This document shows positions 28,206 to 63,889 of a DNA stretch of 64,000 bases, one piece after another (the first letter of the stretch is position 1; the number at the start of each line of letters is the position of its first letter). This DNA comes from Candidatus Goldiibacteriota bacterium HGW-Goldbacteria-1 (GTDB lineage Bacteria; Oederibacteriota; PGYV01): assembly GCA_002839855.1 (NCBI GenBank), contig PGYV01000009.1, positions 10,187 to 74,186 on the forward strand, read 5' to 3'. The notes under the pieces are model-generated. The model was not told the origin of the DNA, ran no database searches, and saw nothing but the letters and a program-made list of their open reading frames with translations. The translations under genes and the position numbers were made by a program.

Positions 28206-29567
28206 ATGGGAAAAAACCATTCCGTTAATGATGTATGCGGTTTTTTCTGGAACATAGAAAAAAAATATAACCTTTTAAACCGCAGCATTAACGGAATTTA
28301 TATCTGGCAGGCTTTAAGAATAGACGTATATTATAAATTAACCGCCAAAATAGGCCTTTTTACCCCTCCTGCTCCCCCTCGCAAGAAAACAATTATGGGA
28401 AGGGCTTTAAAATTATTGACAGAATTTTATTATTTTGTATTTAATAACCCTTTCTTAAAAACAAAAAACACAGACACTGCTGTCCTTCTTCATCCAAGAA
28501 AAATATCCCGGCAGGACATATATTCTTCTTCACTTCTAAAAGAATTTAAGAGAATTAACAAGGACATTTACATATTTGATGTTATGGGTTCTCCTGAAAA
28601 TGATTACGTTACATTTGATCCATATAAAAAAGCCGCGCATATATGGGCGGTTATCAATAAAAAATATATTTCGCTTTCCCCTGCCGATTTGGAAGTAATT
28701 AAAAACATAGAACAGGAAATATATTCCGAATACGCTGTCCGCCTTGACCTTTTACCGCTTATTAAATACAACATAATCAACTTTAAATTTCTTCTCGCCG
28801 TATATCGTAAATTTCTCAGGCAAAAAAAAGTTAAAAAACTTTATGTGGTCGTGGGGTATGTTAATACCCCTCTGATAGCCGCGGCTAAAAGCGTTAATAC
28901 AGAAGTCATAGAACTTCAGCACGGTATAATTACAAAATATCACCTTGGTTACAGTTATCCTGACAAAGGAAATATACACTACATGCCGGACAAGCTTTTG
29001 TGTTTTGGAAAATACTGGTATGAATCAACACCCCTTCCTTCAAATACAAAAACAGCGGTTTTAGGCGCCCCTTTTATCCTTGAACCGGGTAAAAAATACA
29101 GCGCACAAAAAGAAAAAAACTCCGTCCTTTTTGTTTCTCAGGGCGTTATTGGAGAAAAACTTTTCAATTTTGCCCTTCAAACCGCGAAAATACTGCCTTC
29201 TTATAACATCAAATTTAACCCGCATCCAAGTGAAAATTACAATGATTATGAAAAACTTTTTTCAGAAAATACTTTAAAGAATTTTTCATTAACAGAAAAA
29301 AAATACAACATATTTGAACTTCTGGCAATGTCAGAATATCAGGCGGGGGTCTTCTCAACCACCCTTTTTGAAGGAATGGTGCTTAATACAAAAATTATAC
29401 TTATTGACATGGCAGGATCCGAATATATGGCGCCGGTTATTGAAAAAAAAGACGCCATTCTTGTAAAAACACCGGAAGAACTGGCTTTAAAAATAAACAC
29501 AGCCGGATTAGCGGCAAATATTTCAGATTATTACGCGCAGCCGGCCGATAAAATCACGGATTTATAA
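28206..29567 (+). CDS. GT-B-like capsule/surface-glycan transferase
   Basis: A 453-residue protein. The C-terminal half resembles a GT-B nucleotide-sugar domain of the capsule/sialyltransferase type: VIELQHGIITKYH, LLCFGKYWY, FNPHPSE, and GVFSTTLFEGMVLN-like near the end. It follows the flippase with no gap, and its 3' end overlaps the NeuA-PseG fusion by six bases in convergent orientation. A transferase using the CMP-nonulosonate made by this cluster is plausible; the acceptor is unknown. Confidence 0.65.
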   Translation: MGKNHSVNDVCGFFWNIEKKYNLLNRSINGIYIWQALRIDVYYKLTAKIGLFTPPAPPRKKTIMGRALKLLTEFYYFVFNNPFLKTKNTDTAVLLHPRKISRQDIYSSSLLKEFKRINKDIYIFDVMGSPENDYVTFDPYKKAAHIWAVINKKYISLSPADLEVIKNIEQEIYSEYAVRLDLLPLIKYNIINFKFLLAVYRKFLRQKKVKKLYVVVGYVNTPLIAAAKSVNTEVIELQHGIITKYHLGYSYPDKGNIHYMPDKLLCFGKYWYESTPLPSNTKTAVLGAPFILEPGKKYSAQKEKNSVLFVSQGVIGEKLFNFALQTAKILPSYNIKFNPHPSENYNDYEKLFSENTLKNFSLTEKKYNIFELLAMSEYQAGVFSTTLFEGMVLNTKIILIDMAGSEYMAPVIEKKDAILVKTPEELALKINTAGLAANISDYYAQPADKITDL

Positions 29568-31199
29568 TTCAACTTTTATTATATTGGATATTTTTCTGAC
29601 TATTTCCCTGTTTGTCCGGCCTTTGACCGTTGTTTTGGCGTAAAAATGAAGTTTTTTCCTTAATTCATAGTTTTGTATCAGTTTATTTATCTCTTCAGAT
29701 AATTTCTTATCGCTGATATCCGCGCCTAACCCCAGATTTATTACCCCGCATTCTTTTTTTGCGTGCGTGTGCGTGGTTTCCTTTTTATTCTGACACATAC
29801 ATAACACGGGAGTTCCCAGCGTCATAAGTTCCGTTATTGTCCTTCCGGCGCTTGAAAGCGCAATATCCGCTTCTTTCATTATTTTTGGCATATATTTTAC
29901 ATTGGTAAGCACTTCGCCTTTTAAACCGTATTCATTTAAATCTATCTTTCTGTTTTTTCTGCCAAGTCCCTGTACTGCCCTGACAAACCCCTTATATTTA
30001 ATTGCTTTAAGCGCGTTTAAGGCTTTTATTGTAAGATTTGAAGGATCTGTCCCTCCAAAAAGCAGCAGAATATTATCAACAGATTTATTTATTTTCTTAT
30101 CCGGATTAACCCAAGTAAATGAGGGGTGTAAAAAAGCATTTTGGACTCCTGTCAGTTGTTTGGCGTCTTCCACTTCCGGGTTTTTATACAGGTCGCTTAT
30201 AAGAAGATCCGCAATTTTAGCCCCGGGCCCCATATCCTCCAGTGTTATAACAACCGCACCCGTGGACTTCAACCGCTTTACATAATCATACCGTGTATCA
30301 AGCTGATCAAGAATAATTATGTCCGGCTTCATTCTTTGGGAAAGTTTTACAAATTCAGAATCACTTTTTACGCCTATAAAATTATGGGGCATATCCTTAA
30401 AAAAAGAGCTGCTTAATTTTTTATTTCCATAAATATTTGAAACAATATACGTTTCATGTTCTGAAAGTTCATAAGCAATTGCGGAACTTCTGTACAGATG
30501 GCCCATGCCAATTTTCAGGCTTGAATCCGCTTTTATAAGTATTCTTTTCCTTTTTACTATATACTCTGCCGCGTACCAGTCTATATAATCATCGATATCC
30601 ATGCCTTCAACTTTATCAACCGAAATAACAGCAACCGGTTTTATTATTCTTGTTTTATGTTTTTGAATATCTTTTACCCTGGCTCCTATAATTGCGCCTG
30701 ATTCAATGTAATTGGCAGGCAGTTCCTGCCTGTTTACCCTTTTTTTATACGCCGGAATCAGCTCCCCTTTGCTGTTCATTTTCCATGACAAAAACCTGTC
30801 ATCCACAGCTGTCAAAATTGAACCATTATTTTTTATAAGCTTTTTTGCTTTAATTATGGTTTCGGTCTTTAAAAAAGGGCAGGTTGCCTGGACAGTAAAA
30901 AAATAATCATCCCCTTTTGCCCCTAATTTATAAAGTTCACTGAGTGTATTATAAGCCACATTATCAAGGGTTGCCTTGCCTGTTGTTTTTTCTTCCATTA
31001 CAATATTAACTTCATAACCGCGGGCAATTTCACTCAGTTCTGCATCATCAGTAACAACAACAACCTGTTTTTTATTTTCAACTTTCAAAATAGTTTCCAG
31101 AACATACGCCAAAAGGGGTTTGCCTCCAAGATTCCTGGCATTCTTTCTTAAAACATCTTTAGAACCGCCTCTGACGGGTATCATGTACCATGTTTTCAT
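29562..31199 (-). CDS. NeuA-PseG fusion: CMP-nonulosonate cytidylyltransferase and UDP-sugar hydrolase
   Basis: About 545 residues from an ATG at 31199 with GGAG upstream; the open frame continues another 29 codons without a good start. Residues about 1-225 are a cytidylyltransferase (MIPVRGGSKDVLRKNARNLGGKPLL, TVQATCPFL, ESGAIIG). Residues about 235-545 are a PseG-type hydrolase (ADSSLKIGMGHLYRS, LLFGGTDPSNLTIKALNALK, ALSSAGRTITELMTLGTPVLC). The fused steps are not consecutive: PseG acts before, and NeuA/PseF after, the NeuB-type synthase encoded opposite. This points to pseudaminic acid. Confidence 0.85.
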   Translation of the reverse strand: MKTWYMIPVRGGSKDVLRKNARNLGGKPLLAYVLETILKVENKKQVVVVTDDAELSEIARGYEVNIVMEEKTTGKATLDNVAYNTLSELYKLGAKGDDYFFTVQATCPFLKTETIIKAKKLIKNNGSILTAVDDRFLSWKMNSKGELIPAYKKRVNRQELPANYIESGAIIGARVKDIQKHKTRIIKPVAVISVDKVEGMDIDDYIDWYAAEYIVKRKRILIKADSSLKIGMGHLYRSSAIAYELSEHETYIVSNIYGNKKLSSSFFKDMPHNFIGVKSDSEFVKLSQRMKPDIIILDQLDTRYDYVKRLKSTGAVVITLEDMGPGAKIADLLISDLYKNPEVEDAKQLTGVQNAFLHPSFTWVNPDKKINKSVDNILLLFGGTDPSNLTIKALNALKAIKYKGFVRAVQGLGRKNRKIDLNEYGLKGEVLTNVKYMPKIMKEADIALSSAGRTITELMTLGTPVLCMCQNKKETTHTHAKKECGVINLGLGADISDKKLSEEINKLIQNYELRKKLHFYAKTTVKGRTNREIVRKISNIIKVEL

Positions 31200-31291
31200 G
31201 CAGTCGCTCCATTTTACGGCTGTAATTATTTTTATTGATAAAATAACCTTATCTGACAGATTATTACACATTTTAATATAAATCAAACAAT

Positions 31292-31342: not shown

Positions 31343-32233
31343 TTACTTATTCTTTTTTGCCCAGTCAGCTTCCGCCTGAACAAGCATTTCCTTAATATCC
31401 CACAATTTCAAATGATTCGCGTATGACCTGGCTATTTTTCCGTTACTGTCCTTATAAGTGGGATCAGCGCCCATATCAAGAATAGTTTTAACCACGTCTA
31501 TTTTTTTTGACTGAACCGCATAAATAAGAACTGAATTACCCTGTTTATCTTTTGCATTTGGATTGGCGACTTTCACTTTTCTTTTTTTATCGCCTTCAAT
31601 TATGGCATTCAAAACATCTATTTTGCCTTTCCATGCAGCTGCTAAAAAAGCATCTATTCCCTGCGAATTTTTTATTGTCACGTCAGCACCGGCTTCAACA
31701 AGCATCAGGCCTATCTTGCCGTCTCCCTTTCCGGTTGCAAGCGCAGTAATTAAGGCTGTATTTCCCTGGTTCTTTTCTTTTGCATTTAAATCAGCACCTG
31801 CTTCTATTAATAGAGGGAAAACATTCTTGTGTTTTTTAAACGCGGCATAAAGAAGAGGCGTTATTCCTTCTTTATCAACTATATTAACTTCTGCTCCGTT
31901 GGCTATAAGGCTTTTAACAATGTCAGCATTGCCGTCGGCTACGGCATAATAAAGCGCGCTTCTTCCGTCTTTATCCAGAACATTTATATCCCCTTTATAA
32001 GCAACAAGCGCTTTAAGAATTGCATTTACAATTTTTACCTGGCCTTTTGATGTAGCATACATAAGGGCTGTCCTTCCGCCGTCATCAACAGCATCCCTGT
32101 ACTCTTTATCCTTCATTAAATCCATTACATTACCTGTCTGCTCTGCCTGACTGAAAATCTTAATTAATTTATCATTTGCAATTAAAGATGAAGCAAAAAC
32201 TAAAACAAACAAAACAAGAATGATTTTTTTCAT
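31343..32233 (-). CDS. Secreted ankyrin-repeat protein
   Basis: A 296-residue protein with a signal peptide ending near ASSLIAN and about seven ankyrin repeats. Each holds the DGRTALMYAT, GRSALYYAVADGNADIV or EGITPLLYAAFKKH type core with short linkers. Ankyrin repeats mediate protein contacts; here they should be periplasmic. The gene has its own promoter and terminator and stands apart from the polysaccharide genes. Confidence 0.9.
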   Translation of the reverse strand: MKKIILVLFVLVFASSLIANDKLIKIFSQAEQTGNVMDLMKDKEYRDAVDDGGRTALMYATSKGQVKIVNAILKALVAYKGDINVLDKDGRSALYYAVADGNADIVKSLIANGAEVNIVDKEGITPLLYAAFKKHKNVFPLLIEAGADLNAKEKNQGNTALITALATGKGDGKIGLMLVEAGADVTIKNSQGIDAFLAAAWKGKIDVLNAIIEGDKKRKVKVANPNAKDKQGNSVLIYAVQSKKIDVVKTILDMGADPTYKDSNGKIARSYANHLKLWDIKEMLVQAEADWAKKNK

Positions 32234-34622: not shown

Positions 34623-35612
34623 TTATTTATTTACACCGGCTTCCTTTAAATCGGCATCCACCATAATTTTCACAAGTTCCTTAAAATTTGTTTTTGGAAC
34701 CCATCCAAGCTTTTCTTTAGCTTTTGTAGCATCGCCTATCAGAAGGTCCACTTCAGCCGGACGGAAATAACGCGGGTCTATTTCAACATATTTATTCCAG
34801 TCAAGCCCGGCATATGAAAAAGCTTCCTGCAAAAATTCTTTAACCGAATGGGTTTCCCCGGTTGCTATTACATAATCATCCGGTTTATCCTGCTGCAGCA
34901 TAAGCCACATGGCTTCAACATAATCTTTCGCGTAACCCCAGTCCCTTTTGGCATCAAGGTTGCCTAAAAATAATTTATCCTGTTTTTTGGCTGCAATATT
35001 TGCCAGTGCCCTTGTTATTTTCTTGGTGACAAAGGTACCGCCCCTTCTGGGGCTTTCATGGTTGAACAATATTCCATTACACGCAAACATATTATAACTT
35101 TCCCTGTAATTTACCGCCATCCAGTAAGCGTACAATTTTGCGGCGCCATACGGGCTGCGCGGATAAAAGGGCGTGGTCTCTTTCTGAGGAACCTCCTGGG
35201 CAAGGCCGTACAATTCGCTTGAAGACGCCTGATAAAATTTTGTCTCTATCTGCGTTTCCCTTACGGCTTCAAGAAGCCTTGTGGTACCCATTCCTGTAAT
35301 ATCGCCTGTATAAACAGGAATATCAAAACTGACCCTTACGTGGCTTTGCGCTCCCAGGTTATATATTTCATCCGGTTTTATTTTTTCAAGCAGGCGGGAA
35401 AGGTTTGTTCCATCAGCCAAATCACCGTAATACATAAAAAGTTTATTATTCATTATTTCTTTATTGTCCATAAGGTGGTCAATTCTTTCCGTGTTAAACG
35501 CGCTTGAACGCCTCATAATTCCATGAACTTCATAACCCTTGGAAATAAGAAATTCCGTAAGATAAGAACCATCCTGCCCCGTAATGCCCGTAATAAAAGC
35601 TTTTTTATTCAT
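34623..35612 (-). CDS. gmd: GDP-mannose 4,6-dehydratase
   Basis: A 329-residue Gmd. [23 protein letters not shown] at the N-terminus, [62 protein letters not shown] and [14 protein letters not shown] are all present. It converts GDP-mannose to GDP-4-keto-6-deoxymannose and is the entry enzyme for the two genes downstream, 13 and 11 bases apart from their neighbours. Confidence 0.97.
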
Positions 35613-57621: not shown

Positions 57622-57700
57622 GTTTTTTCCTCCATTAAATTAAAAGATGGTTTAAATTATATGCCAAAAGAGGAAAAAAGCAAGAACTTTAAGGGCGGAA

Positions 57701-57722
57701 GCTGGGCGGCTTGGCAGCTGGG
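57701..57722. repeat. GCTGGGCGGC direct repeat, copy 1
   Basis: 20 of 22 bases match 57790-57811. Both contain GCAGCTGGG, also seen inverted near 57970-58001. Confidence 0.6.
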
Positions 57723-57789
57723 AAGCTGGGAAGTAACAACACGAGGGACAGATGCACGGAGGGACGAAAGGAATGGCTGTAAAGGCGCG

Positions 57790-57811
57790 GCTGGGCGGCT
57801 AAGCAGCTGGG
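57790..57811. repeat. GCTGGGCGGC direct repeat, copy 2
   Basis: Second copy of the short repeat at 57701-57722. Confidence 0.6.
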
Positions 57812-57845
57812 CAAAGGCGAAAGGCCGGAAGATCGGTTTGGATCT

Positions 57846-57876
57846 GGTAGGCGCACCTTTTAAGGTGCGGCAGTTG
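57846..57876. repeat. Dispersed hairpin repeat, copy 7
   Basis: GGTAGGCGCACC, TTTTAA, GGTGCGGCAGTTG. The stem differs from copy 3 by compensating changes (GCGCACC/GGTGCG against GCGCGCC/GGCGCG), so the pairing is conserved. Confidence 0.78.
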
Positions 57877-57922
57877 ATTTAGGTTTAGGTGTAGATGTTT
57901 ACCAAAATGAAATGAAAAAAAC

Positions 57923-57954
57923 CAACTGCCCCGGGCTAAAGCCCGCGCCTACCA
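57923..57954. repeat. Dispersed hairpin repeat, copy 8 (inverted)
   Basis: CAACTGCCCCGGGCTAAAGC then CCGCGCCTACCA; opposite orientation to copy 7, 47 bases away. Confidence 0.78.
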
Positions 57955-58011
57955 ATACCAAACCATGTTACCCAGTTACCCAGCTGCCTAGCTGCCTAGC
58001 CTCCGTTCCCC

Positions 58012-58040
58012 TTGACACCCTATTTTAAAAGTGTTATAAA
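58012..58040 (+). promoter_or_regulatory. Promoter of the inositol-lipid operon
   Basis: TTGACA (58012-58017), 17 bases, TATAAA (58035-58040), about 37 bases before the first start codon. Confidence 0.82.
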
Positions 58041-58076
58041 TCATATGTTTTATATAATTGGAGGGAAATTGTAAAA

Positions 58077-58676
58077 ATGGGATACAAAACAGCCAGAGAC
58101 GGCCTGAAAAAGTTCTTTGAAAACGCAATGGTGCCTTTACTTGTACTTTTAAATAAATTGCATATTACACCCAATTTTGTAACATGGGTTGGGCTTATTA
58201 TTAATTTAGCAGGCGCTTTTCTTATATATAAGGGGCAATTTGTTGCAGGCGCAATTGTTATCATATTCGCAAGCATTTTTGACATGATAGACGGCTCCCT
58301 TGCCAGATATACAAACCAGAAATCAAAATTCGGCGGGTTTCTTGATTCCGTAACCGACAGGATATCAGAAGGCGCCCTTTACCTGGCTATTCTGATTTAT
58401 TACCTGAACCTTGAGATACCAAATAAAACCGCGGTTGTTTTATGTTATGTGGTTATGTTTTCATCATTTCTTGTCAGCTATTTAAGGGCGCGCGCGGGCG
58501 GACTTAAAATAGACTGTTCCGGCGGAATCTTTACCCGCCCGGAGCGGATGGTGGTTATTTTACTTGGGCTTTTAATTAATCAGGCAGTCCCGGCGCTTTG
58601 GATTATGGCAGTATTATCCATAGTAACGGTTATTCAGCGGTTTTTGCTTGTCAACGAACAGGCAAAACATATTTAA
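58077..58676 (+). CDS. CDP-alcohol phosphotransferase, probably phosphatidylinositol-phosphate synthase
   Basis: A 199-residue membrane protein with the complete CDP-alcohol motif: Asp69, Asp72-Gly73, Ala76-Arg77, Gly86, Asp90, Asp94 (DMIDGSLAR, eight residues, GGFLDSVTD). GGAGGG precedes the ATG. The family couples a CDP-lipid with an alcohol or alcohol phosphate. Because the next gene makes inositol-3-phosphate, the likely reaction is CDP-diacylglycerol plus inositol phosphate to phosphatidylinositol phosphate, as in mycobacterial PgsA1 and archaeal homologues. The substrate is inferred from context. Confidence 0.88.
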   Translation: MGYKTARDGLKKFFENAMVPLLVLLNKLHITPNFVTWVGLIINLAGAFLIYKGQFVAGAIVIIFASIFDMIDGSLARYTNQKSKFGGFLDSVTDRISEGALYLAILIYYLNLEIPNKTAVVLCYVVMFSSFLVSYLRARAGGLKIDCSGGIFTRPERMVVILLGLLINQAVPALWIMAVLSIVTVIQRFLLVNEQAKHI

Positions 58677-58703
58677 ATTCATAGAAATTTCAGGAGGAGA
58701 AAG

Positions 58704-59834
58704 ATGGCAAAGATTAGAATGGCAATTGCAGGTTTAGGCAACTGCGCCTGGTCCCTGATGCAGGGGCTGGAGTTTTACAAGGACGTACAGGACAGCACGT
58801 TTATCCCCGGACTTATGAACGCCAACCTTGGGGGATACAGGGTGCGCGACATTGAACTTGTCGCGGCTTTTGACGTGGACAGCAATAAGGTTGGAAAAGA
58901 CGTAAAGGACGCGCTGGAAGCCCTGCCTAACAACACGATTGAATTCGCTAAAATGAAAAAGACCGGCGTGAAATGCATGAGGGGCCCGACACTGGACGGC
59001 CTTGGCAAGTATTACAGGGAAGTTGTAACAGAGTCAGACGAGATTCCGGTTGACGTGGCAAAAGTATTAAAGGAAAAGAAAGTGGACGTGTTTGTAAGCT
59101 ACATGCCTGTAGGGTCAGAAGAAGCGGTTCAGTATTACGCTTCGTGCGCCCTTGAAGCAAAATGCGCTTTTGTAAATGCCATCCCGGTCTTTATCGCGTC
59201 AAAGCCGGAATGGGCGGCAAAGTTTAAAAAAGCGGGGCTTCCTATTATCGGGGATGACATCAAATCGCAGGTAGGCGCCACGATAGTGCACAGGGTTTTA
59301 ACCCAGCTTTTTGGAGACAGGGGCGTAAAAATACTGCGCACCTATCAGATTAACTTTGGCGGTAACATGGACTTTAAAAACATGCTGGAACGCGAACGCC
59401 TGTATTCAAAAAAGATTTCCAAAACCAACGCGGTTCTGTCCGCGATGCAGAATGACATTGACAGCAAAGAAGACGTTCACGTAGGGCCGTCTGACCACAT
59501 CCCATGGCTTAAAGACCGCAAATGGTGCCACATAAGGATGGAAGGCGAAAACTTTGGAGGTGTCCCTTTAAACCTTGAATTAAAGCTGGAAGTATGGGAT
59601 TCACCCAACAGCGCCGGCGTTATTATTGACGCGGTACGCTGCGCCAAGATAGCCCTTGATAAAAAAATAGGCGGAATACTGGAAGGGCCTTCGGCTTACT
59701 TTATGAAGACGCCCCCTATCCAGTACGATGACAACCTTGCCAAGACAATGGTTCAGAAATTTGTGGACAGCAAACAAACACCTGTTAAAAAATCCGCTAA
59801 AAAAGCGGTAAAAAAATCTTCAAAGAAGAAATAA
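58704..59834 (+). CDS. ino1: Inositol-3-phosphate synthase
   Basis: A 376-residue synthase of the short bacterial/archaeal type. [19 protein letters not shown] is the NAD-binding start, with [40 protein letters not shown] and [22 protein letters not shown]. It cyclises glucose-6-phosphate to inositol-3-phosphate. A Lys-rich tail ([17 protein letters not shown]) is added at the end. It starts 27 bases after the phosphotransferase gene with AGGAGG. Confidence 0.95.
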
Positions 59835-60683
59835 ATGTACCGCCTGCTTAAATTTACAGGCATGCTGTTAAAAAATATCCCGCGTACAGCGGGATATTTT
59901 TTTTTCAGCGCCATCTCTCTTATTTTATTTGCACTGGACGGCAATAAAAAGAAAATACTTCAAGACAATTTAAAACATGTCCTTAGCAAATTACCTGACA
60001 ACAGGACGCTTAAAAAAAATTATTACAATTATGCAAGGTACTATTTTGACCTTTTTAAAAATACGTCTGAACTTTCAAAAAGTTTTAACCGCGAATCTTT
60101 TAAACCCATGGCAGATACCGTAAAAAGATACCTTGATAGCGGCAAAAGCATGATAATTACCACAATGCACTACGGCAACTGGGATTTAGGCGGCGCGATT
60201 TTAGCATCGTACTTTCCGGGTAAAGTAACAGCAGTGGTGGAAGAATTATCAGACGGAGCTTTTAAATGGTTTACCGAAACAAGAAGCAGCTGGGGTATGA
60301 ATGTTATAAAATCCACGGATTTAAAAGCCATGTTAAAAGTCTTAAAATCAGGAAACCTTCTTGTACTTGTCTCTGACAGGGATTTGGAAAAAACAGGTTT
60401 TAATCCTTTATTTTTTGGCAAAAAAGCGTACATCCCTTCCGGGCCCGCGAAACTGTCGCTTTTATCGGGGGCTCCGGTGCTTTTTGCTGTTTTTAAAAGA
60501 AATGAAACTGACCTATTTAAATATGAACTTTCCTGGGATAACACTCTTATAAACAGTGAAAATCTTCCCCGCACCCCGGAAAACGAGGAAAAAATTACTA
60601 AAGAACTTGTATCAAAATTTGAAACTGTATTGAAACAGGATGCGTCACAGTGGTGCATGCTGCAGAAGGTTTGGCTGGAATAG
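59835..60683 (+). CDS. LpxL/PatA-like acyltransferase, copy 1
   Basis: A 282-residue lysophospholipid-type acyltransferase. The catalytic HxxxxD is His112-Tyr-Gly-Asn-Trp-Asp117; LVSDRD and PSGPAKLSLLSGAPVLFAV follow. The start is an ATG directly after the ino1 TAA. The family includes LpxL/HtrB of lipid A and PatA, which acylates mannose of phosphatidylinositol mannosides. In this operon the PatA role is favoured. A strong terminator-like hairpin lies within codons 12-24. Confidence 0.85.
   Translation: MYRLLKFTGMLLKNIPRTAGYFFFSAISLILFALDGNKKKILQDNLKHVLSKLPDNRTLKKNYYNYARYYFDLFKNTSELSKSFNRESFKPMADTVKRYLDSGKSMIITTMHYGNWDLGGAILASYFPGKVTAVVEELSDGAFKWFTETRSSWGMNVIKSTDLKAMLKVLKSGNLLVLVSDRDLEKTGFNPLFFGKKAYIPSGPAKLSLLSGAPVLFAVFKRNETDLFKYELSWDNTLINSENLPRTPENEEKITKELVSKFETVLKQDASQWCMLQKVWLE
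59870..59905 (+). terminator. Intragenic terminator-like hairpin in acyltransferase copy 1
   Basis: A perfect 14-bp stem (core TATCCCGC/GCGGGATA), five-base loop GTACA, then nine T. It has every feature of an intrinsic terminator but encodes KNIPRTAGYFFF of a plausible acyltransferase N-terminus. It may set polarity between ino1 and the acyltransferase. Confidence 0.7.
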
Positions 60684-60691
60684 TTTTGGAC

Positions 60692-60721
60692 GCTTGGATG
60701 GTTAGAGGCTTAGAGGCTTGG
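60692..60721. repeat. GCTTGGATGG direct repeat, copy 1
   Basis: GCTTGGATGGTTAGAGGCTT followed by AGAGGCTTGG; 29 of 30 bases match 63740-63769. Both copies directly follow an operon segment end. Confidence 0.75.
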
Positions 60722-60764
60722 CTGGAGCGAGCCTGCGAAGTTAAAATCCCCGGGCTTACGCGGA
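60722..60764. repeat. GGAGCGAGCCTG repeat, inverted relative to 63813-63855
   Basis: CTGGAGCGAGCCTGCGAAG then ATCCCCGGGCTTACGCGG; the reverse complement appears, imperfectly, at 63813-63855. Confidence 0.65.
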
Positions 60765-60775
60765 TTATTTGGCTT

Positions 60776-60810
60776 TGGTAGACGCGGGTCTTTAGCCCGC
60801 GGCAGTTGAT
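60776..60810. repeat. Dispersed hairpin repeat, copy 9
   Basis: TTGGTAGACGCGGGTCTTTA then GCCCGCGGCAGTTGAT; same orientation as copy 2 at 49268-49300. Confidence 0.8.
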
Positions 60811-60900
60811 TTTTTTGGTGCATTAAAAACAAAACCTATACATAAATATTTATTTTATTTATAATAAACCGCTGTTAAAAATATTACAAAAAGAGAATAT

Positions 60901-62055
60901 ATGCCTGATACTTTTAAAAAAATAGCCATAGTGACGCCGTATTATTACCCGCTTTACGGCGGCGTACAGGAATACGTCTATCACCTTAAAAAAGAGTATC
61001 AAAAACTTGGATATTTTATAAAAGTAATCACTTCGCGTTTTAATAACGGCATATCTGAAGATGAAAAAGACGTAATAAGGATAGGGCGCGGGTATCCTAT
61101 AACAGTAAACGGTTCCACAGGCAGAATAATACTGATGCGTGATAAAACAGAAATTAAAAAAGCGCTGGATGAGTATAATTTTGACATAATACATTATCAG
61201 GAACCCTTTGTCCCCTTTCTGTCGCATGAAGTTATAAAATATTCCAAAGCGCTAAACATAGCCACTTTTCACGCCAACTTTACTTCAAACATTTACTACA
61301 GGGCCGGAAAACTTTTTATTTCGCCTTTATGGAAAAAACTTCACGGAAAAATAGCGGTATCCCCTTCCGCAAAAAGCAGCATTTCCAGGTATTTTGACGG
61401 TACTGAAGTTGAAATAATACCAAACGGCGTTTCAACGTCGCGCTTTTCCCCCATAGGGGATAAAATAGAAAAATTCAACGACGGGATGTTAAACATACTT
61501 TTCACGGGCAGAATAGAAAAAAGAAAAGGGCTTGTGTATCTTATAAAAGCCTATGAAAAACTTAAAAAAACGCATTCACACATAAGGCTTATTGTTGTGG
61601 GACGCGGCCCTTTAATGCCGCAGCTTCAGAAATACATAAAAAAACACGCAATAAAAGACATCTTTTTTGAAGGTTTTGTTTCCACGGATGACCTTCCAAA
61701 ATATTACAGGACCGCGCAGATATACTGCTCGCCCGCGCTTTTTGGCGAAAGTTTCGGCATTGTTTTGCTGGAAGCCATGTCCGCGGGAGTGCCTGTTGTT
61801 GCTTTTAACATAAGCGGATATAACGACGTTGTATCAAATATGGACGACGGTTTTCTTGCGCAGCCGCGCGACGTGCATGACCTGTCGCAGAAACTGGAAA
61901 TTCTTATAACAAAAAAGCCCATTATGCTTGAACTTGGCGCGCGCGGCAGGATAAAAGCCAAACGCCACGCCTGGCCGGAAATAGCCAAAAAAAACCTGGA
62001 ATTTTATAAAACTGTCTGGAATAAGAAGCTTACAGACAAAACAGAGGCGGTTTAA
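60901..62055 (+). CDS. PimA-like GT4 glycosyltransferase
   Basis: A 384-residue GT-B enzyme. IVTPYYYPLYGGVQEYVYHLKKEYQ at the N-terminus, ATFHANFTSN, FTGRIEKRKGLVYLIKAYEKL, VVGRGPLM and PALFGESFGIVLLEAMSAGVPVVAFN with Glu-x7-Glu. The length and motifs fit PimA/PimB-type mannosyltransferases and other GT4 enzymes. With an inositol-lipid synthase and two acyltransferases around it, mannosylation of phosphatidylinositol is the best reading. Its stop overlaps the next start by one base. Confidence 0.85.
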   Translation: MPDTFKKIAIVTPYYYPLYGGVQEYVYHLKKEYQKLGYFIKVITSRFNNGISEDEKDVIRIGRGYPITVNGSTGRIILMRDKTEIKKALDEYNFDIIHYQEPFVPFLSHEVIKYSKALNIATFHANFTSNIYYRAGKLFISPLWKKLHGKIAVSPSAKSSISRYFDGTEVEIIPNGVSTSRFSPIGDKIEKFNDGMLNILFTGRIEKRKGLVYLIKAYEKLKKTHSHIRLIVVGRGPLMPQLQKYIKKHAIKDIFFEGFVSTDDLPKYYRTAQIYCSPALFGESFGIVLLEAMSAGVPVVAFNISGYNDVVSNMDDGFLAQPRDVHDLSQKLEILITKKPIMLELGARGRIKAKRHAWPEIAKKNLEFYKTVWNKKLTDKTEAV

Positions 62056-62915
62056 TGTACTACATTATCGTGATTTTTACGGCTTTAATAACCCTTATCC
62101 CCATCAGGGCGCTGTACGCGGCCGCGTATTACATAACAAAAGTAATATTTTTTTTCTGGGCTGAAAAGTATAAAAATGTTGAGGATAATTATAAAACCGT
62201 ACTGTTAAAAAAACTTGGCCGTTCCCCTTCTGATGCCGAACTTAAAAACACCATAAACGATAACCTTAAAAATTACGCCATGTTTAACGTGGAATTTTTA
62301 TACCTTAATAAAATGGTAAAAAAAGGGGCTGTTCCTGAAATCCGCGGAACAGAAAAACTGGATGAATCCCTTAAAAAAGGCAAGGGCGTCATAATGTGCA
62401 CCCTTCATTTTTCAAACTGGGATATTGCGGGGCTTACAATTTCTTCCCACTACGATAATGTCTGGGCGGTTGCCGATGACCTTGGCGGCGGATATTCAAA
62501 ATTTATACAGGAAACCCGCGGAAAATACGGCATACATATTGTGCTTCCAAATAAAAACCTTAAAGACGCCTACCGCTGCCTGGAAAATAACGGCATTTTA
62601 AACGTGCTTGTGGACAGGCCTGTTACGCCTTTGGAAAAAGGCGCTGTGGAAGTGGAATTTTTTGGAAGAAAAACACATGTGGCATCTTTTGCCGCAAGGC
62701 TTGCTTTAAAAACAGGCGCAGCATTAATGCTTGGCTGCGTCATAAGGGAAAATGAAAAGTTTTACGGAAATCCCGGAGAAATTATAGAGTATAATGTTAC
62801 CGGTAATACCGATACAGACCTGCAGGTAATAACACAAAAAATAATGAATCACGCGGAAAAACTTATATCAGCACATCCGGAACAGTGGTATATGTTCCGC
62901 AGGTTTTGGAAATAA
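62055..62915 (+). CDS. LpxL/PatA-like acyltransferase, copy 2
   Basis: A 286-residue acyltransferase with an N-terminal membrane segment. His118-Phe-Ser-Asn-Trp-Asp123 is the HxxxxD motif; VDRPVTP and AARLALKTGAALMLG follow, and the end EQWYMFRRFW is like LpxL. Copy 1 and copy 2 differ in the flanks, so they probably act on different positions. It is translationally coupled to the PimA-like gene (TAATG). Confidence 0.88.
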   Translation: MYYIIVIFTALITLIPIRALYAAAYYITKVIFFFWAEKYKNVEDNYKTVLLKKLGRSPSDAELKNTINDNLKNYAMFNVEFLYLNKMVKKGAVPEIRGTEKLDESLKKGKGVIMCTLHFSNWDIAGLTISSHYDNVWAVADDLGGGYSKFIQETRGKYGIHIVLPNKNLKDAYRCLENNGILNVLVDRPVTPLEKGAVEVEFFGRKTHVASFAARLALKTGAALMLGCVIRENEKFYGNPGEIIEYNVTGNTDTDLQVITQKIMNHAEKLISAHPEQWYMFRRFWK

Positions 62916-62946
62916 AAAAAACCTATTTTAATCATAAGGAGCTTCA

Positions 62947-63732
62947 ATGTCAAAAAAGAAAAATTCATTTTTTACACAGCACCCTCCACACGGCTACGCG
63001 GTGGACAGGCATATGGAATTCATAAAACAGGAACACCTTATCGGATACAGTAAAGCGGATACCCACCTGCATACAACCGCCAGCGACGCTGTGAACACGC
63101 CTGAAGAGGTTGTGGACTATGTGGAACATCACACCGACCTATCTATTATAGGGGTTACTGACCACGACCAGATAAAAGGCGGAATAGCCGCGCAGGAATA
63201 CGCCCTTAAAAAAAAATACAGGGTTCAGGTAATTGTGGGAGAAGAAGTAAGCACTTTAAAAGGCCACCTTATAGGGCTTTTTATGAAAAAAAGGATAAGA
63301 AGATACACATCTTTAATTGACACTATAAAATCAATTCACGAACAGGGCGGAATAGTGGTTGTCCCGCATCCTTTAAGCTGGCTTACCACATCTGTGGGAG
63401 AACAGGCATTTAAAACGGTAATAGACCATAAGGACCCGCTTGTATATTTTGACGCTGTGGAACTTTTAAACCCCGCCATAGCAGGCAAGATAACCGACGG
63501 CAAAGCAGCTAAAATCAATAAGGAATTCTGGAAACTTCCCGTAACCGGCGGGTCTGACAGCCATTCTTTTGAAGGCGTGGGCGATGCCTATACTTTGTTT
63601 AAGGGAAAAACAATTGAAGACTTCCGCACCGCCATCAAAGAAGGCACCACGTTTTTTGGCGGCACATACTGGGACTTTCAGGACCACTGGGATTTGTTTA
63701 TAAAAAAGGTCAAGAAATTCAAGGTTTTTTAA
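62947..63732 (+). CDS. PHP-family metal-dependent phosphoesterase
   Basis: A 261-residue PHP domain protein with a full set of metal ligands: His40 and His42 (DTHLHT), Asp72-His73, Glu100, His107, His141 and the closing SDSH. It has AAGGAG before the ATG and is the last gene of the operon. PHP enzymes hydrolyse phosphoesters. In this context it could be the phosphatidylinositol-phosphate phosphatase or an inositol-phosphate phosphatase, which is inference; nucleoside phosphatases of this type are also common. Confidence 0.85.
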   Translation: MSKKKNSFFTQHPPHGYAVDRHMEFIKQEHLIGYSKADTHLHTTASDAVNTPEEVVDYVEHHTDLSIIGVTDHDQIKGGIAAQEYALKKKYRVQVIVGEEVSTLKGHLIGLFMKKRIRRYTSLIDTIKSIHEQGGIVVVPHPLSWLTTSVGEQAFKTVIDHKDPLVYFDAVELLNPAIAGKITDGKAAKINKEFWKLPVTGGSDSHSFEGVGDAYTLFKGKTIEDFRTAIKEGTTFFGGTYWDFQDHWDLFIKKVKKFKVF

Positions 63733-63739
63733 AATAGAT

Positions 63740-63769
63740 GCTTGGATGGTTAGAGGCTTAGAAGCTTGG
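63740..63769. repeat. GCTTGGATGG direct repeat, copy 2
   Basis: 29 of 30 bases match 60692-60721. It begins eight bases after the PHP stop codon. Confidence 0.75.
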
Positions 63770-63778
63770 TAAAATCTA

Positions 63779-63889
63779 AATCAACTGCCCCCTAACACTT
63801 GCGCTCGTAAACTCACGCAAGCCCGGGGATTTCCGCTTCACAGGTTCGCTCCAACCGCGGGCTAAAGGGACGCGCCTGCCACTGCATAC
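63779..63889. repeat. Dispersed hairpin repeat, copy 10, interrupted
   Basis: The left arm CAACTGCC and the right arm CGCGGGCTAAAGG plus GACGCGCCTGCCA of the family are separated by about 70 bases that include the inverted GAGCGAACC/CCCGGGG block. It looks like a copy split by an insertion. Confidence 0.6.

Follow-up and report, generated by a model that had tools for sequence, protein, structure and literature searches.

Mannosylated, acylated inositol lipids are known mainly from Actinobacteria, and the locus described here raises the question of whether a diderm bacterium that also has lipid A could make lipids of this kind. The locus lies in a stretch of 64,000 nucleotides (the window) from Candidatus Goldiibacteriota bacterium HGW-Goldbacteria-1, a member of the group also called Candidatus Goldbacteria or candidate division FCPU426; this organism carries lipopolysaccharide (LPS) genes. 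The window is G000:C9:10187-74186, where G000 is the organism's own genome (2.86 Mb, 18 contigs, completeness 100%), and the contig stops at the window's last base. Six contiguous open reading frames (ORFs) on the + strand (58077-63732) encode a CDP-alcohol phosphotransferase that we read as a phosphatidylinositol-phosphate (PIP) synthase (PIPS), an inositol-phosphate synthase (INO1), a PatA-like acyltransferase (AT1), a PimA-like glycosyltransferase of family GT4, a second PatA-like acyltransferase (AT2) and a phosphoesterase of the PHP family, in the order PIPS-INO1-AT1-GT4-AT2-PHP. A preliminary description of this DNA had recognized six genes of these families on one strand; the ORFs are found where it placed them, and the Pfam and NCBIfam domain assignments of all six proteins agree with it.

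The operon probably makes phosphatidylinositol (PI) and an acylated glycosyl-PI, most likely mannosyl-PI, alongside the lipid A of its diderm host. The preliminary description had proposed PI and an acylated, mannosylated derivative, and family affinities, conserved residues and conservation of the locus all support that proposal, with mannose as the likely sugar rather than one read directly from the genes. The simplest way to model the pathway begins with INO1, which would convert glucose-6-phosphate to inositol phosphate, and PIPS, which would join the latter to CDP-diacylglycerol to give PIP. PHP would then convert PIP to PI, and GT4 would transfer one hexose onto PI, with a nucleotide sugar (most likely GDP-mannose) as the donor. 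AT1, by analogy with PatA, would acylate the sugar added by GT4, and AT2 would place a second acyl chain on the same glycolipid. The sequence of reactions, the sugar identity, the sites of acylation, the substrate of PHP and the membrane that receives the product are inferred.

The enzymes that would make and first glycosylate the lipid have actinobacterial proteins as their best solved relatives. PIPS finds NF045883 (PIPSynth) as its best NCBIfam model and actinobacterial PIP synthases as its top solved relatives, with 6h53 as the best match in the Protein Data Bank (PDB; 6e-28), and the best PDB match of INO1 is the inositol-3-phosphate synthase 1gr0 (2e-143). The CDP-alcohol phosphotransferase motif DxxDGxxAR...GxxxDxxxD (D69, D72, G73, A76, R77, G86, D90 and D94) is present in 11 of 11 sequences from the host's taxonomic order. 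The same 11 keep the inositol-phosphate pocket of the M. tuberculosis enzyme (R94, R137, R152, R155 and R195), the sole change being K135 to R, and R95, R157 and R188 of the window protein (R94, R155 and R195 in M. tuberculosis) are invariant in the order. The roles of these residues, including the inositol-phosphate arginines, are taken from published work, according to which the R155/R195 pair is not conserved in eukaryotic PI synthases (PMC4634129, PMC6506517). Among solved enzymes, GT4 matches PimA (2gej/4n9w) at 1e-40 (143 bits) and the next enzyme at 9e-16 (61 bits); a profile search gave 185 bits for PimA, 84 for the next, 74 for MshA (3c4q) and 65 for PimB'. A fold search with an AlphaFold model of GT4 (10 sequences, mean pLDDT 74.7) also ranked PimA first, with other GT4 enzymes close behind because all share one fold. 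An LPS-type identity for GT4 is ruled out by sequence rank and fold, and the comparison of GT4 with PimA and LPS transferases, put forward earlier as a way to refute the assignment, left PimA best on both counts and LPS and other GT4 enzymes far below by sequence. The base of a 44-row GT4 tree stayed open, and the placement of PimA was not resolved.

The arrangement of the genes is conserved. Of the 14 genomes of the order, our own included, 10 have the intact PIPS-INO1-AT1-GT4-AT2-PHP order; in two others (G008 and G011) a contig end interrupts an INO1-AT1-GT4-AT2-PHP block, and PIPS, GT4 and PHP are all absent from G006. The 10 genomes span 51-95% identity to the window PIPS, so that a chance association of the six genes is excluded. 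Within the order, PIPS proteins can be as little as about 45% identical to that of the window, and GT4 and PHP proteins about 60%, and the gene order has thus outlived considerable sequence divergence. The order relatives also show the block ending at the PHP gene. Outside the order, PIPS-INO1 also occurs in a sister group of the phylum, without a PimA-like GT4. In four loci of that group (L044, L045, L047 and L048), PIPS-INO1 lies 3' of lptC-lptA-lptB, with lpxL upstream, and near rpoN (annotated in L047).

Several observations weigh against this reading and are best considered together. Scores against the best NCBIfam models fall below the cut-offs, with 165.3 bits against an equivalog cut-off of 170 for PIPS, 551 against 638 for INO1 (TIGR03450) and 142 against 209 for AT1 (PRK07920, PIM acyltransferase, where PIM stands for phosphatidylinositol mannoside). 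One genome of the order, G005 (82% complete), keeps PIPS-INO1 alone of the block and has no PHP or GT4 of the operon kind, so PIP there would need another phosphatase. The residues that GT4 shares with PimA do not fix the identity of the sugar. Finally, a PimB'-like second mannosyltransferase was found neither in the operon nor in the scanned GT4 paralogues of the same genome, which had other best models; PIM2 and higher forms are therefore not expected, and a monohexosyl product is. The operon likewise has no gene for the polyprenol-dependent PimE, for which no dedicated search was made. The preliminary view of a complete PIM-type operon accordingly holds for the presence of the six genes and needs qualifying as regards the second mannosyltransferase, with mannose as the probable sugar only.

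The gene set is not peculiar to this organism: the six families are also clustered in Chloroflexota, and GT4 and PHP are fused in Actinomycetota. A contig scan with the PIPS of the order found four Chloroflexota contigs with INO1-AT-PHP-GT4-PIPS, and a PHP profile matched at 1e-20 in 222 of 301 Chloroflexota genomes. The 29 best new Chloroflexota loci (stretches up to 3.7 kb) contain a PimA-like GT4 in 28 cases, an acyltransferase in 26 and PIPS at the edge in 18, and all six families, with two acyltransferases, were present in 11 of 15 wider regions. These clusters share with the operon the six families, both acyltransferases, PHP and the single strand. They differ in gene order (INO1-AT-AT-PHP-GT4-PIPS in L266-L268 and L273-L280, with PIPS usually last overall) and in their lower identity, and some have no INO1 or PIPS nearby. 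In the GT4 tree, the Goldbacteria proteins and those from PIPS-linked loci of Chloroflexota fall into one group (90/98). A literature search found no published account of the Chloroflexota INO1-AT-AT-PHP-GT4-PIPS clusters and no description of PIM-like lipids in either Goldbacteria or Chloroflexota. Thermomicrobia reportedly contain acylated phosphoinositol mannosides built on long-chain diols. In L072, INO1 and PIPS are separated by a xylose-isomerase-like triosephosphate isomerase (TIM) barrel (PF01261; 7031-7939), and the gene after PIPS encodes adenylosuccinate synthetase; other Dehalococcoidia loci have genes of similar size at these two places.

In Actinomycetota, ten PIPS-INO1 loci (L103, L106, L109, L110, L112, L116, L121, L122, L125 and L133) are followed by one GT4 + PHP fusion protein of about 650 amino acids. 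This Actinomycetota/Thermoleophilia arrangement shares with the operon a PimA-like GT4 and PHP beside PIPS-INO1, and differs in that the two form one protein of about 630-730 amino acids and in that no paired acyltransferases were seen. In one fusion, the GT4 portion has PimA as its top match at 3e-40, ahead of the next enzyme at 5e-12, and PimA is the only solved match (1e-6) for the GT4 of a more divergent fusion. Among 296 sampled Actinomycetota genomes, a long PHP protein was found in 16 besides that of L121, in every case 2-8 kb from PIPS. No PHP match at 1e-20 was found in 273 of the 296, and PHP therefore need not be the mycobacterial PIP phosphatase.

What might PHP do in these clusters? 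The conversion of PIP to PI is a step for which the enzyme had not been identified in prokaryotes (PMC4634129). PHP appears to be a specific member of the pathway and the best candidate for the missing PIP phosphatase in these lineages, because it is always in the full Goldbacteria block, is common in the Chloroflexota block and is fused to a PimA-like GT4 in Actinomycetota; we give it close to an even chance of being that enzyme. The protein has PF02811 and PF13263 domains (PHP/PHP_C), and its model (mean pLDDT 74.2) has the PHP fold, with Foldseek matches to 2anu, 3e38 and 7ug9. This protein retains the metal ligands, as do, with few exceptions, the 35 fused and 50 stand-alone entries compared with it (some loci counted twice). 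Elsewhere in the phylum, 5 of 9 PIPS-bearing genomes have a strong PHP relative, against 0 of the 22 that lack PIPS (one-sided Fisher test, 7e-4), a weak test since the five positive genomes are one family. PHP is neither a universal partner of PIPS nor a family unique to the pathway. Many PIPS-INO1 clusters have no adjoining PHP, with no obvious other phosphatase among the neighbours scanned, and a related PHP gene occurs without PIPS in G055, G204, G237 and G258.

The alternative that survives best is that PHP acts after GT4, e.g. on glycosylated PIP, or on another ester, and that a general enzyme of the PgpA/PgpB type dephosphorylates PIP, as in Bacteroides. PHP tracks the PimA-like GT4 more closely than it tracks PIPS (PIPS-INO1 clusters without such a GT4 are mostly without PHP), G005 has PIPS-INO1 without PHP, and some PHP genes occur without PIPS, which suggests that a later intermediate may be the substrate. 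Furthermore, the PHP fold family includes nucleases and other hydrolases, and the Bacteroides PIP phosphatase is the PgpA-like BT_1525 (PMC9246714). The Bacteroides thetaiotaomicron cluster BT_1522-BT_1526 resembles the present operon in its diderm host and in the clustering of MIPS and PIP synthase with a phosphatase, and differs in the PgpA-like type of that phosphatase, in its products (PI and phosphoinositol dihydroceramide) and in having no PimA or PatA (PMC9246714). A later role is nevertheless at odds with the need for a phosphomonoesterase between PIPS and PimA and with the conserved metal ligands; the fusion to a PimA-like GT4 fits consecutive steps, and the co-occurrence with PIPS elsewhere in the phylum, close relatives though the five genomes are, points the same way. 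We consider a later role a serious possibility, somewhat short of an even chance.

A second alternative accepts that the cluster makes PI and has GT4 add a sugar other than mannose, giving a different acylated glycosyl-PI. The functional PimA residues Y9, G16, N63, S65, H118, R196, K202, E274 and E282 are kept in GT4; donor preference cannot be read from them, and Y62, K123 and T126 are among the positions that are not kept. Two lines of evidence favor mannose. PimA is the clear best relative by sequence and the first by fold, and genes for GDP-mannose metabolism are present. The window encodes Gmd, a GDP-mannose 4,6-dehydratase (34623-35612, - strand; TIGR01472, 551 bits against a cut-off of 415), and elsewhere in the genome a phosphohexomutase adjoins a protein that finds NF052502, the Rv-type mannose-1-phosphate guanylyltransferase, as its best model (279 bits against a cut-off of 440). 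With these genes present, the GDP-mannose donor for a PimA reaction is very probably available in the cell. A search with TIGR01479 for GDP-mannose synthesis gave weak matches only, which are not taken as absence because that model is also silent in Corynebacterium. Mannose is most likely the sugar that GT4 adds, and a different one seems rather unlikely. The gmd gene lies near one for a GDP-fucose-synthase-like epimerase. Two neighbouring GT4 proteins of the same genome (L156, 4357-6803) have monoglucosyldiacylglycerol synthase as their best match, so that the cell may also make glycosyl-diacylglycerols.

It could also be argued that the two acyltransferases of the operon act on lipid A, or on lysophospholipids in general, and lie beside the PI genes by accident. 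Both are members of the LpxL/LpxM/PatA superfamily (PF03279), and for AT2 the best PIM and lipid A models score nearly alike (116 bits for PRK07920, 109 for lipid A). In the PDB, AT2 matches PatA at 5e-13 and a lipid A acyltransferase at 5e-7, and AT1 matches PatA (5oce) at 8e-17. PatA H126 and E200 correspond to H and D in all AT1 and AT2 proteins (catalytic H112 and D181 in AT1). This pair does not separate PatA from LpxL, since the block-3 acid is E or D alike in PatA, HtrB and MsbB (PMC4792965, also the source for the PatA residue roles). The genome has a third PF03279 protein that groups with LpxL and lies beside lptC-lptA-lptB (lpxL-lptC-lptA-lptB); a separate LpxL in this place leaves AT1 and AT2 surplus to lipid A and makes a lipid A role for both unlikely. 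In the acyltransferase tree, LpxL stands as a clade by itself (100/99). AT1 and AT2 share only 26% identity, and each has a clade of its own within the order; the branch at which PatA joins is weak, and orthology with the two Chloroflexota acyltransferases was not settled. Paired acyltransferases recur within the same cluster in Chloroflexota, and this alternative is improbable. LpxC, which 13 of the 14 genomes of the order have, our own included, together with lpxL-lptC-lptA-lptB and a GT9 enzyme in the window confirms the earlier view of the host as a diderm and not an actinobacterium.

The last alternative, that the phosphotransferase makes phosphatidylglycerol, phosphatidylserine or a soluble osmolyte such as di-myo-inositol phosphate, with Ino1 serving osmolyte or thiol synthesis, draws on the diversity of CDP-alcohol phosphotransferases, some of which make other lipids or osmolytes in Archaea and Thermotogales, and is highly improbable given the PIPS model as best match, a score of just 67 of 580 bits against the IPCT/DIPPS model, the kept PIPS-specific arginines and the genome's own PgsA-type protein (G000:C4), which lies far from PIPS in the tree on a branch of 8.4 changes per column. 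NCBIfam models, arginines and tree likewise rule out PgsA, PssA and DIPP synthase as identities for the protein, and the test of the phosphotransferase against PIP synthases came out in favor of the original assignment.

The operon is closest in content to the mycobacterial PIM pathway (the PgsA1, PatA, PimA locus), with which it shares PIP synthase, Ino1, a PimA-like GT4 and a PatA-like acyltransferase; the best solved relative of each operon enzyme, PHP excepted, is actinobacterial. Unlike in mycobacteria, where the Ino1 gene lies elsewhere, ino1 is in the operon, and there is a second PatA-like acyltransferase, both as first described; a PHP phosphoesterase is present, a PimB'-like gene was not found, and the host, which has LPS genes, is a diderm. 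In mycobacterial PIM synthesis, inositol receives the second acyl chain from an unassigned enzyme that is believed to lie in the periplasm and may differ from PatA (PMC9490103), and AT2 is for that reason not to be equated with it. As a tentative synthesis, PHP would be the PIP phosphatase, and AT2 the dedicated second acyltransferase, of a widespread six-gene acylated glycosyl-PI pathway found in Goldbacteria, in Chloroflexota and, as a PimA-PHP fusion, in deep Actinomycetota; we put this synthesis at somewhat less than an even chance. The kind of pathway is known; so far as we could check, the new elements are the diderm host, a six-gene set that includes two acyltransferases, and the association with PHP in three phyla. 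If the synthesis is right, a tetra-acylated PIM-like lipid would exist in diderms that also have lipid A. Inositol lipids are rare among bacteria (PMC9246714), and a conserved set in a diderm phylum and in Chloroflexota would mean that work on mycobacteria has greatly understated the age or the mobility of this pathway, and that the pathway can exist together with lipid A. Testable candidates are at hand for the PIP to PI enzyme (PHP) and for the second acylation step (AT2).

The layout of the operon is given in the table. The consensus promoter of the preliminary description is present in sequence and conserved; a strict promoter scan did not report the TTGACA site at 58013, and promoter-like matches in the region were near chance (17 found, 12.4 expected), so that conservation is what supports a promoter there. 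The 217-bp gap between AT1 and GT4 contains a second promoter-like site, also kept within the genus, and the operon may therefore have two transcription starts.

Features of the six-gene locus (window coordinates)
Feature	Position	Strand	Basis
Promoter-like TTGACA-17-TATAAA	58013..58041	+	Sequence, 5' of operon; kept in two congeners; missed by strict scan
PIPS, phosphatidylinositol-phosphate synthase (CDP-alcohol phosphotransferase)	58077..58676	+	NF045883 PIPSynth, PDB 6h53, residues, tree
INO1, inositol-phosphate synthase, actinobacterial type	58704..59834	+	TIGR03450, PDB 1gr0
AT1, PatA-like acyltransferase	59835..60683	+	PRK07920, PatA 5oce, H112 and D181, apart from the genome's LpxL
Possible internal promoter TATACA-17-TATAAT, 5' of GT4	60837..60865	+	Kept in three congeners
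GT4, PimA-like retaining glycosyltransferase	60901..62055	+	PimA match by sequence, profile, fold and residues
AT2, second PatA-like acyltransferase	62055..62915	+	PRK07920, PatA match, own clade
PHP, metal-dependent phosphoesterase, candidate PIP phosphatase	62947..63732	+	PF02811/PF13263, fold, metal ligands, GT4 linkage and fusion

An intergenic element that is dispersed and repeat-like, with long imperfect inverted repeats (GGCAGTTGATTT / GCCCGCGG), occurs at 57696-58005, 60681-60816 and 63729-63881. Its copies flank the operon and fill the AT1-GT4 gap, and the gap copy is missing in one congener. Elsewhere in the window, a 574-amino-acid protein (29562-31286, - strand) combines a CTP_transf_3 cytidylyltransferase with a PseG-like domain and perhaps serves a sialic-acid-like sugar, and an ankyrin-repeat protein (31343-32233, - strand) adjoins the sugar genes.

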